The notes beneath the pieces were generated by a model, which had not been told where the DNA came from, did not search any database, and was given only the letters and a program-made list of their open reading frames with translations. A stretch of DNA of 11,201 bases. Origin: Acidimicrobiia bacterium (GTDB lineage Bacteria; Actinomycetota; Acidimicrobiia; UBA5794; JAOTWH01). Position 1 is the stretch's first letter. Every line of letters starts with the position of its first letter. This document shows positions 34 through 11,201 of the stretch, one piece after another. Location of the stretch: assembly GCA_029863035.1 (NCBI GenBank), contig JAOTWH010000058.1, positions 1 to 11,201 of the forward strand, written 5' to 3'. The translations under genes and the position numbers were made by a program.

Positions 34-54
34 TGGGACCATATAGGTGGCCAT

Positions 55-60
55 TACCCT
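55..60 (+). promoter_or_regulatory. Putative -10 box (TACCCT) of a leaderless promoter
   Basis: TACCCT fits the actinobacterial -10 pattern TANNNT and ends 7 nt before ATG 68, so transcription would begin at or next to the start codon. No -35 box is convincing. It supports ATG 68 over GTG 47, which lies upstream of the box. The same layout recurs at five other genes in the window. Confidence 0.4.
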
Positions 61-67
61 CGAAGAC

Positions 68-757
68 ATGCAATTGTGGTTGGCCAGGCACGCCGAACCC
101 CAGTGGGCAGTCGACGGCATCAATCAGCGAGACCCTCAGCTCACCGAGCGGGGTCATCAACAGGCAACACTGCTCGCCAAACGACTGGCCGAAGTCGAGG
201 AGCCGTTCACCGAGCTCCTGGTGTCTCCGGCACGCCGGGCGCAGCAGACCGCGGCGCCGATAGCCGATGCGCTAGGCCTGAGTCCCCACACCATCGACGA
301 CCTCACCGAGATCCGGATGCCGGACTGGAGCGATACCCCGGAAGAAACCGTCCAACAGATCTTCAAGGCTTCCTACCAGCGGCCTCCCGCGCAATGGTGG
401 GACGGCTTGGAGGGAGGCGAATCCTTCCGTGACTTCCACGATCGGATCACCGGTGCTTTTGCCGCCATGCTTTCCGACCGAGGACTGAAGCGACCCTCTC
501 ACGACGAACCGACCCAGCTATGGCAGGTGGCGTCCCATGATGAGAAGGTCCTGGTGGTGGCCCACGGCGGCACCAACGCGGTAGCGCTCGGCTTCCTGCT
601 CGGTGCAGCCCCGACTCCGTGGGAGTGGGAGCGATTCGTCCTCGGACATGCCTCTTTGGCTTCGCTTGTGTCGTTCCCTTTAGGCGGTGAGCACATCCTT
701 TCGATGCGCACCTTCAACGACTGCGAGCACCTGGCGCAGGAGATGCGTACCAAGTAG
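68..757 (+). CDS. Histidine phosphatase family protein (phosphoglycerate mutase-like)
   Basis: Probable phosphatase or mutase working through a phosphohistidine; the substrate cannot be told from sequence. From ATG 68 the protein is 229 residues and begins MQLWLARHAEP, which puts the catalytic His at residue 8, as usual for the family. The motif is RHA rather than the common RHG. Further signatures are LVSPARRAQQTA (51-62, phosphate-binding Arg), a likely acid/base Glu in LTEIRMPDW (79-87), GGESF (116-120) and the second catalytic His in VVAHGG (163-168). A GTG at 47 would add seven residues. I prefer 68 because the family starts just before the RHG strand and because a TACCCT box ends 7 nt upstream, as at other starts here. 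There is no Shine-Dalgarno at 68. The gene appears monocistronic. The family call is firm, the function unknown. Confidence 0.9.
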   Translation: MQLWLARHAEPQWAVDGINQRDPQLTERGHQQATLLAKRLAEVEEPFTELLVSPARRAQQTAAPIADALGLSPHTIDDLTEIRMPDWSDTPEETVQQIFKASYQRPPAQWWDGLEGGESFRDFHDRITGAFAAMLSDRGLKRPSHDEPTQLWQVASHDEKVLVVAHGGTNAVALGFLLGAAPTPWEWERFVLGHASLASLVSFPLGGEHILSMRTFNDCEHLAQEMRTK

Positions 758-772
758 CGGCTCCGTTTGCCG

Positions 773-778
773 TAGGGT
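773..778 (+). promoter_or_regulatory. Putative -10 box (TAGGGT), overlapping a possible Shine-Dalgarno
   Basis: TAGGGT fits TANNNT and ends 6 nt before GTG 785, the layout of a leaderless promoter. The overlapping AGGG (774-777) could instead be a ribosome binding site with 7 nt spacing. Either reading supports GTG 785 as the start of the small cysteine-rich gene. Confidence 0.35.
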
Positions 779-784
779 CAGCGG

Positions 785-988
785 GTGCACATCCCATTCA
801 TCGGCAATTGGAAAGAGAGCGAAGCACCGTTGCTGACCAAGGTCGGCATGGTGTTGAAGAACAACGCCAAGAAGGCGGCGACGCTGTCCAGTTGTTGTGG
901 CAATCACGGAGAGCCAGGCTGTTGACGAGGTCCTGACGAGCCCGGTTCGGGCTCACACGATCACAGCCACGGGGACCACGACCACTAG
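785..988 (+). CDS. Small cysteine-rich CCGNHGEPGC protein, candidate selenoprotein (in-frame TGA at 923-925)
   Basis: Too short for usual gene callers. From GTG 785 the frame encodes 46 residues, beginning with residues HIPFIGNWKESEAPLL after the start, with a basic middle (LKNNAKKAA) and the end SSCCGNHGEPGC. It then meets TGA at 923-925. Read conventionally the gene stops at 925. The same frame runs on for 20 codons without another stop and ends in HDHSHGDHDH before TAG 986-988: six His and three Asp in ten residues, which looks like a metal-binding tail rather than chance. If TGA is read as selenocysteine the product has 67 residues and a Cys-Sec pair. A hairpin at 938-954 is suitably placed for insertion. 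A recent nonsense mutation of a Cys or Trp codon is the main alternative. AGGG at 774-777 (7 nt spacing), overlapping the TAGGGT box, supports the start. I do not recognise a function; the Cys/His content suggests a redox or metal role. Confidence 0.6.
938..954 (+). promoter_or_regulatory. Candidate bacterial SECIS hairpin downstream of TGA 923-925
   Basis: GAGCCCG (938-944) pairs perfectly with CGGGCTC (948-954) around a GTT loop (945-947). The stem starts 12 nt after the TGA and the loop begins 19 nt after it. Bacterial SECIS elements, as I recall the models, have a short apical loop with a G in its first two positions, a stem of several base pairs, and a loop roughly 16-37 nt from the UGA; this hairpin satisfies all three. 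It lies inside the continued reading frame, as bacterial SECIS elements do. No T-tract follows, so an intrinsic terminator is less likely. SelB recognition is not demonstrated. Confidence 0.45.
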
Positions 989-1006: not shown

Positions 1007-1789
1007 CTACAGCCCGTATCGGCGTTCTCGTCGGGTGAAATCGCGCAGCGCCCGGAGGAAATCGACACGGCGGAACGCCGGCCAGAACACATCAACGAAG
1101 CTGAACTCCGAGTAGGCCGACTGCCACAGCAGGAATCCCGACAGCCGAGATTCGCCGCTGGTGCGGATCACAAGGTCGGGATCCGGCACGTCTGTGCTGT
1201 AGAGATGGGCAGCGATGCTGTCGGCGTCGATCTTGCCAGCCATCTCCTGTGGATCGAGTCCCTCGTTGCCCAGCCCGGTTACCAGATCGCGTACCGCGTC
1301 GACGATTTCTTGACGACCCCCGTAGGCCAAGGCGATCGTCAATCGGTGGTCACCACCCGAGGTCGCCTCTTCACATCGTTTAGCTGCTTCGACGACGTTC
1401 GCCGGCAACAGGTCGAGGCTGCCGATGAAGCGGATCGACCATCCGAGCCGTCCAGCAGTTTGCGGAAGCCTCTCGAACAACCCGACCAGCACCTCGAAGT
1501 AGGGTCTCAACTCCTCTGCCGGACGCTGCAGGTTCTCCTTCGAGAGCAACCACCCCGTCACGGCCGGGATCCCGAAGCCGTCGCACCAATTGAGGAACTC
1601 GACAAATCGGTCCATACCCATGCGGTAGCCGGCGGCGTAATCGATCAGCCCGCTCTCTCTGACAAAGCGACGGTGGCCATCGAGGATCACCCCAACGTGG
1701 CGGGGTAGGCGGCCGTCGTCGAGGTCTCTGGCCAGGCGATCCTCATAGAGGCGATAGAGGGGCCTCAACAAACTGCTGCGGATAGTCAT
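1007..1789 (-). CDS. uppS: Isoprenyl transferase (cis-prenyltransferase, UppS family)
   Basis: Condenses isopentenyl diphosphate onto an allylic diphosphate with cis geometry to make polyprenyl diphosphates, the precursors of cell-wall lipid carriers. From the chosen ATG it has 260 residues, normal for the family. Seen in order: HVGVILDGHRRF (31-42, catalytic Asp37), LLSKENLQRP (81-90), and the very conserved end RTSGESRLSGFLLWQSAYSEFSF (209-231). A longer frame reaches 1867 but would overlap the divergent hemolysin III gene and add a poorly conserved 26 residues; MTIRSSLLRPLYRLYEDRL is a typical family start. Some signature residues are unusual: DGHRR for DGNGR/DGNRR, GYRMG for GHxxG, and SKEN for STEN. 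It may therefore be a paralogue with a different chain length. It converges on the small cysteine-rich gene, with only 18 nt between the stops. Confidence 0.9.
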   Translation of the reverse strand: MTIRSSLLRPLYRLYEDRLARDLDDGRLPRHVGVILDGHRRFVRESGLIDYAAGYRMGMDRFVEFLNWCDGFGIPAVTGWLLSKENLQRPAEELRPYFEVLVGLFERLPQTAGRLGWSIRFIGSLDLLPANVVEAAKRCEEATSGGDHRLTIALAYGGRQEIVDAVRDLVTGLGNEGLDPQEMAGKIDADSIAAHLYSTDVPDPDLVIRTSGESRLSGFLLWQSAYSEFSFVDVFWPAFRRVDFLRALRDFTRRERRYGL

Positions 1790-1822
1790 GCTGATACCGA
1801 TGGTAGAGAGACAACAACCGCC

Positions 1823-1828
1823 TATCCT
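1823..1828 (+). promoter_or_regulatory. Putative -10 box (TATCCT) of the hemolysin III gene
   Basis: TATCCT matches TANNNT and ends 14 nt before ATG 1843, giving an expected leader of about 8 nt. It lies in the short divergent spacer with uppS. A TACCAT on the minus strand (1805 down to 1800), ending 10 nt before the uppS ATG, could serve that gene. No -35 box is convincing for either. Confidence 0.3.
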
Positions 1829-1842
1829 GGTCTCTTCCCCTG

Positions 1843-2511
1843 ATGAACCCTCCCGAACGAGTAACACTCGGCCCCATCCAGAACCCAGTGCGGGGTTTCC
1901 TCAATGGAACCGCTGCCATCGTGGCATGGGTCGGCCTGGCGTTCCTCGTCACCACCGGCTCCGGATTGTCGGCTCGACTGTCGCTTGCCGTTTTCGGTGC
2001 TGGGTTGGTGATCCTGTTCTCAGTCAGCTGCCTCTATCACGCGGTTCCCTGGAAGCCCACCGCCAAAGCCATCATGCGCAGGGTGGACCACTCCGCCATC
2101 TTCATTCTCATCGCGGCCACCTACACCCCGCTGGGGATAATCGTGTTCGACGGGTGGGCCAGTTGGCTGACGCTTGGAGTTGTGTGGGGCATCGCCGCCT
2201 TCGGCATCGGCCAACACGTCTTCTTTCCGCGCTCGCAGCAAGTTCTATCGATGATCCTCTTCCAGGTGATGGGCTGGTTGGCGGTCTTCATCATGATCCC
2301 GATGGGTCAACGAATTGGGTGGGAACCCGTTCTGTTATTTCTGGGCGGAGGCATTCTTTACACGGCGGGCATGATCTTCATGGCCACCGGGCGCCCTCGC
2401 CTGTGGCCGCGGGTCTTTTCTGCTCACGAGTTGTTCCACGTGCTCGTGATAGCCGCCGGCACTCTGCACTTCGTAGCCACCATTCGCTGGGTGGCCCCCT
2501 ACAGCGCCTAG
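1843..2511 (+). CDS. Hemolysin III / PAQR family membrane protein (TrhA-like)
   Basis: Integral membrane protein of the hemolysin III branch of the PAQR superfamily. The 222 residues form about seven hydrophobic segments, starting near residue 22. The metal-site signatures of the family are present: SCLYH (62-66, SxxxH), DHSAIF (82-87), and HELFH (195-199) followed by His209 in the last helix. In bacteria such proteins have been linked to membrane fluidity homeostasis and zinc-dependent hydrolase-like chemistry; true haemolysis is doubtful. ATG 1843 has a TATCCT box ending 14 nt upstream and no Shine-Dalgarno, so a very short leader is likely. It is divergent from uppS (53 nt apart) and its TAG overlaps the stop codon of the convergent pcnA by 3 bases. 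Confidence 0.92.
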   Translation: MNPPERVTLGPIQNPVRGFLNGTAAIVAWVGLAFLVTTGSGLSARLSLAVFGAGLVILFSVSCLYHAVPWKPTAKAIMRRVDHSAIFILIAATYTPLGIIVFDGWASWLTLGVVWGIAAFGIGQHVFFPRSQQVLSMILFQVMGWLAVFIMIPMGQRIGWEPVLLFLGGGILYTAGMIFMATGRPRLWPRVFSAHELFHVLVIAAGTLHFVATIRWVAPYSA

Positions 2512-9717: not shown

Positions 9718-10026
9718 ATGGATGACGAAACGCCGGAGCAGGATTTCCCCACCAAGATCGCCGATTCCATCGAAATGGCCGCCGGGAAAGTGCGGGCTCT
9801 GACTATCGATCGGGTGGACGGGGCCGCCAAGTGGGCAGCGCTAGCTGTGATCTTGTTCGTTCTCGCCATCGTGGTGTTCGTCTTCCTCGTCATCGGTTTG
9901 CTTCGCCTCGGTGGCGAGGTGGTTGGCACCGAGTGGTCCTACGTGATTCTTGGGGGATTATTCGTCCTCGGCGGGGCGTTGGTGTGGAGGCTCCGCAACA
10001 AAGTGCCTCAGGAGGAATCCGAATGA
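9718..10026 (+). CDS. Small two-helix membrane protein (holin-superfamily-like), trxB-linked
   Basis: The 102 residues begin with an acidic segment ([20 protein letters not shown]) and an amphipathic stretch. Two hydrophobic helices follow at about 38-63 ([20 protein letters not shown]) and 73-90 ([17 protein letters not shown]), and the tail is charged ([12 protein letters not shown]). Both ends are therefore probably cytoplasmic. The shape resembles actinobacterial DUF1469/phage-holin-superfamily membrane proteins, but the family is not certain and the function is unknown. The stop overlaps the trxB start (ATGA, 10023-10026), and the trxB Shine-Dalgarno lies inside this gene, so the two are cotranscribed and probably translationally coupled. 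Similar small membrane proteins next to trxB would be worth comparing across Acidimicrobiia. Confidence 0.82.
10010..10015 (+). promoter_or_regulatory. Shine-Dalgarno (AGGAGG) of trxB
   Basis: A perfect AGGAGG core stands 7 nt before ATG 10023. It fixes the trxB start and contrasts with the leaderless-looking starts elsewhere, as expected for an internal operon gene. Confidence 0.8.
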
Positions 10027-10943
10027 GCGAAAAGCTGATCATCATTGGCTCGGGTCCGGCCGGTCTCACCGCCGCGATCTACGCAGCCCGTGCCGATCTC
10101 GAACCTCTGCTCTTCGAAGGCGCTCAGGCCGGGGGTCAGTTGATGCTCACCACCGACGTCGAGAACTACCCCGGTTTCCCCGACGGGATCACTGGTCCCG
10201 AGTTGATGCAGAAGTTCCGCGAGCAGGCTGAACGGTTCGGCACCCGAATCGTCACCGACGACGTGACCGCGGTCGATTTCTCGGTGGCACCCTTCATCGT
10301 GCGGGTGGGAGAGGACAGTCACGAGGCCGACGCCGTTGTCATCTCAACCGGCGCTTCAGCCCGCTGGCTCGAGATCCCCGGCGAAGAAAAGCTGCGCGGC
10401 CATGGCGTGTCAGCATGCGCCACCTGTGATGGATTCTTCTTCAAGGAGAAGGAGTTGGTTGTGGTCGGGGGAGGTGACTCCGCCATGGAGGAAGCATTGT
10501 TCTTGACCAAGTTCGCTTCGAAGGTCACCGTCATTCATCGCCGCGATGAGTTCAGAGCGTCGAAGATCATGGCCGACAGGGTCATGAAGAACCCCAAGGT
10601 CGAAGTCATGTGGGACAGCGTGGTAACCGAGGTACACGGTGAGACCTCTGTGACCGGTGTGAGGGTGCGCAACACCAAGACCGCCGCTGAGTCGGACTTT
10701 GCCACAGAGGGGTTGTTCGTTGCCATCGGCCACACACCGAACACAGATCTGTTCAAAGGTCAGCTAGAGCTAAACGACAAGGGCTATATCGACGTATTCG
10801 AGGGAACTACAACGTCTGTGCCGGGTGTCTTCGCTTCCGGAGACGTCGTTGACTTCGTATACCGTCAGGCCGTGACCGCGGCGGGAACCGGCTGTGCAGC
10901 AGCTCTCGACGCCGAACGTTGGCTCGAAGCCCGAGAGGCCTGA
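10023..10943 (+). CDS. trxB: Thioredoxin-disulfide reductase
   Basis: Cytoplasmic FAD flavoenzyme that uses NADPH to reduce thioredoxin. The 306 residues show the FAD-binding loop [16 protein letters not shown] (9-24), [16 protein letters not shown] (37-52), the redox-active CATC (Cys132, Cys135) in [10 protein letters not shown], the NADPH-binding [10 protein letters not shown] (149-158) with HRRDEFRAS (172-180), GHTPNT (236-241), and the closing FAD segment [21 protein letters not shown] (270-290). Length and motif order are those of the low-molecular-weight bacterial enzyme. The start is fixed by AGGAGG and by the ATGA overlap with the upstream membrane protein gene. trxA follows after about 60 nt, so the enzyme and its substrate are probably made together. 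Position after sigma and anti-sigma genes matches mycobacterial trxB2. Confidence 0.98.
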
Positions 10944-10989
10944 AGGAACACAAAGGGCTCCGCGGCGGTTATAGGTCGTGCAATTCAAA

Positions 10990-10995
10990 AAGGAG
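10990..10995 (+). promoter_or_regulatory. Shine-Dalgarno (AAGGAG) of trxA, deciding between two ATGs
   Basis: AAGGAG lies 3 nt before ATG 10999 and 9 nt before the in-frame ATG 11005. The longer spacing is the more usual, so 11005 is preferred, although the two products differ by only two residues (Met-Lys). Confidence 0.65.
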
Positions 10996-11004
10996 ACAAT
11001 GAAA

Positions 11005-11201
11005 ATGGGTGAGAACACGGTCACCGTTAGCGACTCTGACTTCGAAGCTGCCATCTCGGGCGATAAGCCGGTGTTGGTTGACTTCTGGGCCGAATGGTGT
11101 GGGCCGTGCCGCATGATCGCTCCGGTGCTCGACGAGGTCGCTACCGATCACAGCGACAAGATCACCATCGCCAAGCTCAACGTCGACGAGAACCCCCAGT
11201 C
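11005..11201 (+). CDS. trxA: Thioredoxin, partial (3' end beyond window)
   Basis: Small cytoplasmic dithiol protein that reduces disulfides in client enzymes and is recharged by the adjacent reductase. The 65 visible codons start [20 protein letters not shown] and include the hallmark [20 protein letters not shown] (25-44), with the redox pair Cys32 and Cys35 and the Pro of CGPC. Then comes [14 protein letters not shown]. The gene is cut by the window edge; the cis-Pro loop and last helix are missing. About 60 nt separate it from trxB, with no terminator in between, so one transcript is likely. TTATAG at about 10969 could be an internal promoter element, but I cannot support it. Confidence 0.95.

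Follow-up and report, generated by a model that had tools for sequence, protein, structure and literature searches.

Bacterial SECIS elements ordinarily lie inside the coding region. Among proteins with a Cys-Sec pair, thioredoxin reductase has a GCUG C-terminal end with vicinal Cys and Sec, and the KCU-star selenoprotein is small and carries Sec near its C-terminus. The published bacterial SECIS model consists of a 4–16 bp stem with a 3–9 nt loop, a G at the first or second loop position and a spacing of 16–37 nt (PMC13188914). The deep-Sep filter retains a candidate if it has a known Sec homologue or if at least two of its top ten hits are Cys homologues, and its paper states a possible loss of families without Cys homologues (PMC12013277). 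Here we analyse a stretch of 11,201 nucleotides from an Acidimicrobiia bacterium (the window), in which a short gene almost certainly encodes a 67-residue selenoprotein of an undescribed family present in Acidimicrobiia-like and other Actinomycetota.

The reading frame and its TGA codon

The gene extends from position 785 to 988 on the forward strand, from a GTG start to a TAG, and is read through a TGA. The frame is the one proposed by the initial annotation. The 46 codons from the GTG (785..922, +) cover a predicted helical region followed by CCGNHGEPGC and are conserved in 39 aligned homologues. They meet the in-frame TGA at 923..925 (+), read as Sec47 from the TGA column of the homologues and from the Cys found there in three proteins (P0030, P0067 and P0076). 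The 20 sense codons of a His-rich tail, RGPDEPGSGSHDHSHGDHDH (926..985, +), were assigned from a third-position substitution excess in the tails of relatives, and the TAG at 986..988 (+) was taken as the true stop from the frame read and from the mixed tail stops across relatives. The read-through product has the expected length of 67 residues, with Sec at position 47. The segment HDHSHGDHDH, credited earlier with six His, contains five in ten. The His-rich continuation was nevertheless rightly called unlikely by chance: among the 482 stop triplets of the window, both strands included, the TGA at 923–925 is the only one that leads into 10 or more open codons with at least five His in ten.

The perfect hairpin announced by the initial annotation, GAGCCCG-GTT-CGGGCTC, was found within the tail at 938..954 (+): its 7 bp stem closes a GTT loop and starts 12 nt past the TGA, with 19 nt from the TGA to the first loop G. 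We assigned it as SECIS-like from hairpin scores, covariation and likeness to FdhA-like sites. The 86-nt fold around the TGA had a z-score of -2.7, and an equally good fold was seen in 0 of 200 shuffles. The comparative evidence given below is far stronger than either the rarity of the His tail or the fold z-score in the window.

Upstream of the gene, a putative -10 element TAGGGT (773..778, +), of the form TANNNT, lies 6 nt before the start codon. In 36 of 39 sequences of the same class, a TANNNT was located no more than 16 nt ahead of the start, compared with 40 of 536 control starts, and in those 36 the distance to the start was 6–9 nt. With the motif so placed, the gene is probably transcribed alone and without leader; the position of TAGGGT itself suggests a leaderless mRNA. 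The upstream neighbour (47..757, +), whose protein resembles the histidine phosphatase family, was matched by tblastn upstream of the gene at 4 of 80 other loci, and the convergent downstream neighbour (1007..1867, -), which resembles isoprenyl diphosphate synthase (UppS), was matched downstream at 16 of 80. Neighbours at other loci resemble transketolase, fumarase, malate dehydrogenase and isocitrate dehydrogenase. No gene neighbour was conserved across the family loci, most of which span only about 1.5 kb of flank. As a separate observation, genes resembling those for thioredoxin reductase and thioredoxin lie at the window end (10014–11199), some 9 kb away from the gene studied here.

Homologues were collected in several steps. 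An initial contig scan gave seven relatives, all with TGA right after CCGNHG[E/D/Q]PGC and then an open tail. A profile search in 395 genomes of the same class gave matches in 38; removal of three chance matches (G106, G280 and G127) left 35. Together with the window, L002 (from G002) and second copies in G201, G216 and G236, these form a class set of 40 sequences. The double copies in the latter three assemblies may reflect duplication or mixed assembly. At the level of the phylum, 46 of the 396 genomes searched had a match; two of these were already known (G004 and G014) and one was decayed (G401), leaving 43 new sequences: 41 in the scripted count, and L079 and L110, which were missed by the motif or start filter of the script, read by eye and kept outside the 81 sequences counted. 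A second draw of 345 genomes of the same class gave 35 with a match, the sole new genome being G241, whose copy no longer has the motif. A pattern search in viral contigs found no homologue. Assignment of the relatives to Acidimicrobiia and Actinomycetota follows record titles and source names. One record (L001) is labelled Acidobacteria bacterium; its genome groups in one class with the Acidimicrobiia relatives, and the label is probably an error.

All 83 homologous sequences, from the window and 79 genomes, carry TGA at the Sec column (81/81 in the scripted count, with L079 and L110 in agreement by eye), and neither TAA nor TAG was seen there (0 each). The stops closing the tails are mixed over the 81 sequences (TGA 43, TAG 31, TAA 7), so a uniform TGA column is not expected of a plain stop; its rough probability is 5e-23 on the assumption of independent sequences, which these are not. 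The two decayed relatives, L109 (1668–1799, CCGHPSEPDF-TGA) and L138 (from 1520, CCGFSTAP-TGA), have lost the Cys-Sec motif, and their genomes (G401 and G241, respectively) still have a SelB match. A nonsense change that turned a Cys or Trp codon into TGA in the strain of the window, the rival named in the initial annotation, or an assembly error can be dismissed, as 82 further sequences, taken from 79 genome assemblies and in many cases distantly related, share this TGA.

The tail and the SECIS-like hairpin

The tail was examined in 20 pairs of close relatives by a nucleotide alignment blind to frame. Mismatches fell at third positions in 95 of 182 cases (0.52, p = 1e-7), and beyond codon 12, past the hairpin, in 40 of 74 (0.54, p = 2e-4). 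Over the 75 nt that follow the stop of the tail, the proportion was 93/280 (0.33), the neutral share; pairs with at least 50% mismatch or less than 75 nt of downstream sequence were left out of this control by the script. Judged by its substitutions, the tail behaves as protein-coding DNA as far as its own stop and no further.

A His-rich tail was present in 55 of the 81 sequences, and a His-rich N-terminus in 15 of the remaining 26 (11 by count and four, L070, L072, L073 and L075, by eye); L077, L095 and L099 count as N-terminally His-rich only with a farther start codon, and L059, cut by a contig end, stands outside the N-terminal counts. Occurrence of the His segment at either end in different lineages suggests that it is selected. 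Neither end is His-rich in 11 of 81, so that metal binding is not universal. Five sequences (L084, L098, L100, L101 and L103) have tails of 1–4 codons and keep both Cys-Sec and hairpin, and in all five the tail stop precedes the hairpin loop. All of these but L100 end in GC-U-x; in L100 the stem begins at the stop codon, and the hairpin of L084 is weak and lies beside a masked stretch. Long tails were also observed: 64 to 74 codons in L053 (1651 on), L055 and L056 (minus strand), where a His cluster is followed by what appears by eye as a coiled-coil-like stretch, and 90 codons in L061.

With 7 bp, loop GTT and spacing 19, the hairpin of the window falls within the published SECIS model. A hairpin score of at least 15 was obtained for 69 of the 81 sequences. 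The corresponding figures were 65 of 394 for the controls, TGA stops that close long ORFs at these loci, and 11.7% for 4050 shuffles. The other 12 of the 81 scored below 15. The loop lies 18–22 nt from the TGA in 77/81 and at exactly 19 nt in 32/81. The 69 strong hairpins showed 50 kinds of 5′ arm, with pairs 3 to 7 from the loop occurring in several types, a tally that is not independent, as these hairpins had been chosen for pairing. Covariation was measured on a MAFFT alignment of 40 sequences, not fitted to the structure. In this alignment 82.1% of cells were paired (66.7% in shuffled data) and 43 cells were changed on both sides (18.9 in shuffled data); the paired share, the double-changed cells and the covariation score were all lower in every slid register. 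Two of the five measures, pairs with a double change and further pair types, were not above shuffles. Run on the plain MAFFT alignment, RNAalifold returned neither a pair nor a common fold because hairpin spacing differs between sequences; hence hairpins were searched in each sequence separately. Rfam gave no match within the window.

As a positive control, we took ten FdhA-like genes (L149–L158) from carrier genomes. Their Sec sites (SCNRT-U-H) showed, in 10/10, CCG or UCG, a GUC loop and UGG, the loop standing 19 nt after the TGA. The family hairpin shares a similar core (CCG, GUU and CGG in the window) and the 19-nt spacing with these sites, a likeness that is partly confounded since the protein after the FdhA-like Sec is itself conserved, which fixes part of the DNA. 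The FdhA-like hairpin belongs to an unrelated protein, whereas in the new family stems are more variable and five tail stops precede the loop. For five of the ten FdhA-like sites (L153 and L155 to L158), the 60-nt minimum-energy fold lacks this hairpin. SelD genes (L139–L148) carried an in-frame TGA (G-U-ACKL) in all ten fetched, followed by a strong hairpin. We considered this hairpin as the same element; it too has a GUY loop, but at about 33 nt from the TGA (by eye), and was set aside as different.

Selenocysteine machinery, database entries and the reading of the TGA

Genes of the Sec machinery were counted in the genomes of relatives. SelB (E 1e-60) was found in 31 of 35 class carriers and missed in 4, compared with 189 of 360 family-negative genomes (Fisher p = 2e-5), given a class total of 220 over the cut-off and the assumption that the 395 genomes were identical in the two class searches. 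Twenty-eight of the 31 were seen over the curated cut-off; those of G220, G255 and G289 (E 1.6e-80, 2.5e-77 and 4.5e-74) were taken as over, and G002 had no SelB over it. With G002 included, tRNA-Sec was found in 33 of 36 class carriers (absent from 3), SelA in 31 (absent from 5) and SelD in 35, with an inner TGA in 31. An FdhA-like gene with an inner TGA was present in 31/36, only the match of G272 being above the curated cut-off of that family. The G006 assembly has no SelA, SelB or tRNA-Sec, yet contains TGA-bearing FdhA-like and SelD genes. In the phylum genomes, counting G401, SelB was over the cut-off in 40/44 and tRNA-Sec present in 32/44, leaving 4 and 12 assemblies without; excluding G401, which has both, the numbers were 39/43 and 31/43. 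Neither SelB nor tRNA-Sec was found in the G427 and G723 assemblies, and tRNA-Sec matches near 50 bits (G325, G533, G552 and G749) may be other tRNAs. By these gene matches, most carrier genomes hold Sec machinery together with other genes bearing a Sec-type TGA.

Searched at E 0.01, a set of 5.8 billion proteins yielded 2945 matching clusters, and among the best 120 of them every source-given name shown was ‘hypothetical protein’. We read 123 proteins, namely these best 120 and four from another search, one being shared. From this sample of the best 120 of 2945 clusters, 119 of the 123 proteins end exactly at ..GC, just before the Sec codon, and three (P0030, P0067 and P0076) carry Cys at the Sec column; for the short entries, the codon after ..GC was seen in those also read as genome loci. 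P0103, with CF instead of CC, also ends at GC. Among the genome loci, Cys was found at the column in 0/81.

No real match was found in NCBIfam release 20 (39 members at E 1; 80 members at E 0.1), and Pfam gave chance matches only. A streptolysin S-type model, at E 0.009 in one of 80 members, was rejected as reflecting low-complexity Cys content. The PDB sequences returned a single match at E 0.71 and no family. In Table 1 of a 2026 catalogue, none of the 119 prokaryotic selenoprotein families fits CCGNHGEPGCU followed by a His tail, the families being set apart by name and motif and not by alignment of each representative (PMC13188914). Among the papers listed from the open-licence literature, none names this family in its title or the start of its abstract, and the exact motif retrieved none.

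These data bear on how the TGA is read. A suppressor tRNA or a changed genetic code could translate the TGA as Trp or Cys, and programmed read-through could pass it without Sec; either would also yield a coding tail. We consider such recoding extremely improbable: TGA is an ordinary stop here, ending 430 of 685 open frames of at least 200 aa as well as 43 of 81 tails, Trp stands at the column in none of the sequences read, and both Sec machinery and a SECIS-like hairpin are present. Equally, the TGA might be a true stop of a 46-residue protein ending in PGC, with the His codons and the hairpin representing a chance frame or a terminator. Automatic annotation does end there, in the 119 of 123 proteins stopping at ..GC and in P0103. 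This is nonetheless very improbable in view of a column that is TGA in 83/83 and never TAA or TAG, of the coding constraint ending at the tail's own stop and of the three Cys homologues that continue past the column; likewise, the hairpin conforms to the SECIS model, and in the window it is not followed by a T-run.

We are thus left with Sec incorporation at the TGA (923–925) and translation of the tail, a reading that the compared sequences make very probable. SelB would bind the hairpin and deliver Sec-tRNA at the UGA, as expected from known biology. The checks suggested by the initial annotation pointed the same way: homologues aligned at the TGA gave the uniform column, a constrained tail and three database homologues with Cys; the hairpin was conserved, covarying in three of five measures and like that at the FdhA-like Sec codon; and Sec machinery, sought in the carrier genomes of relatives, was present in most.

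Possible function and comparison with known selenoproteins

Residue conservation was examined in an alignment of 80 sequences selected among the loci and the proteins. N26, C37, C38, G42, G45 and C46 are invariant, and M1, N8, G39 and P44 are conserved at 90% or more. AlphaFold2 predicted helices at 4–11 and 16–33 followed by coil, with a mean pLDDT of 62.7 (low confidence); the model is too weak for a claim about the fold. A Foldseek search returned nothing at E 0.001.

Metal binding is only suggested, by the His-rich ends and the Cys/Sec pairs. We tentatively propose, at slightly less than even chance, that the gene is transcribed on its own and that its product is a small redox-active protein that binds metal. 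In it, the Gly/Pro-rich GNHGEPG turn would bring together two vicinal pairs, Cys37-Cys38 and Cys46-Sec47, which could form a selenenylsulfide/dithiol or a soft-metal site. The His-rich arm, found at the C-terminus in some lineages and at the N-terminus in others, might collect or hand over a metal ion. Nearly as likely is a purely redox role, in which a real Sec would serve a Cys-Sec carrier resembling thioredoxin reductase and the His residues would be incidental or used for folding or localisation. The vicinal Cys-Sec is that of thioredoxin reductase GCUG ends, the five sequences with tails of 1–4 codons retain Cys-Sec and hairpin, and 11/81 have no His-rich end; recurrence of the His segment, at the C-terminus in 55/81 and at the N-terminus in 15 of the remaining 26, speaks against it. 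Considering the redox-active metal-binding protein further, we give somewhat less than even chance to a broader view: a large family across Actinomycetota, nearly all-Sec among the sequences read and absent from the sources consulted, consisting of mini metalloproteins whose selenol would help to bind or sense metal and whose His arm would have moved between the ends, with Sec penultimate and the SECIS in the 3′ untranslated region in some lineages.

The ‘new kind of selenoprotein’ announced earlier thus holds at the level of the family, which matches nothing in Pfam, NCBIfam, PDB or the catalogue; the metal or redox role proposed with it is inferred. The work adds a selenoprotein family absent from Pfam, NCBIfam and, as far as its table of 119 families goes, the 2026 catalogue (PMC13188914), whose database entries, among those seen, mostly stop just short of the Sec codon. 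Published homology filters could overlook a family with few Cys forms. The relatives also provide a compact actinobacterial SECIS set for tests of SelB recognition, including hairpins past the stop codon.

Among the selenoproteins listed in the catalogue's table, KCU-star (YbdD/DUF466, NF033934) shares the Cys-Sec pair (catalogue motif CU; PMC13188914). It differs in that NF033934 had no match in 80 members at E 0.1, and in that the motif here is CCGNHGEPGCU with a tail. The CC/Se motif family (NF041239) and SaoC (NF040734) also have Cys and Sec close together (CxxU and CU in the same table; PMC13188914), and neither profile matched among the family members. MbdU (NF045648), a metal-binding double selenoprotein by its catalogue name, shares the CU motif (PMC13188914); however, it has two Sec compared with one in the new family, and its profile was without match. 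Thioredoxin reductase, with its GCUG end, has in common a vicinal Cys-Sec at or near the C-terminus, whereas the new family consists of small separate proteins that are not flavoproteins and have no profile match. Finally, the short-tail relatives (L084, L098, L100, L101 and L103) depart from the textbook bacterial SECIS: their tail stop comes before the loop, in contrast to an element contained within the coding region.
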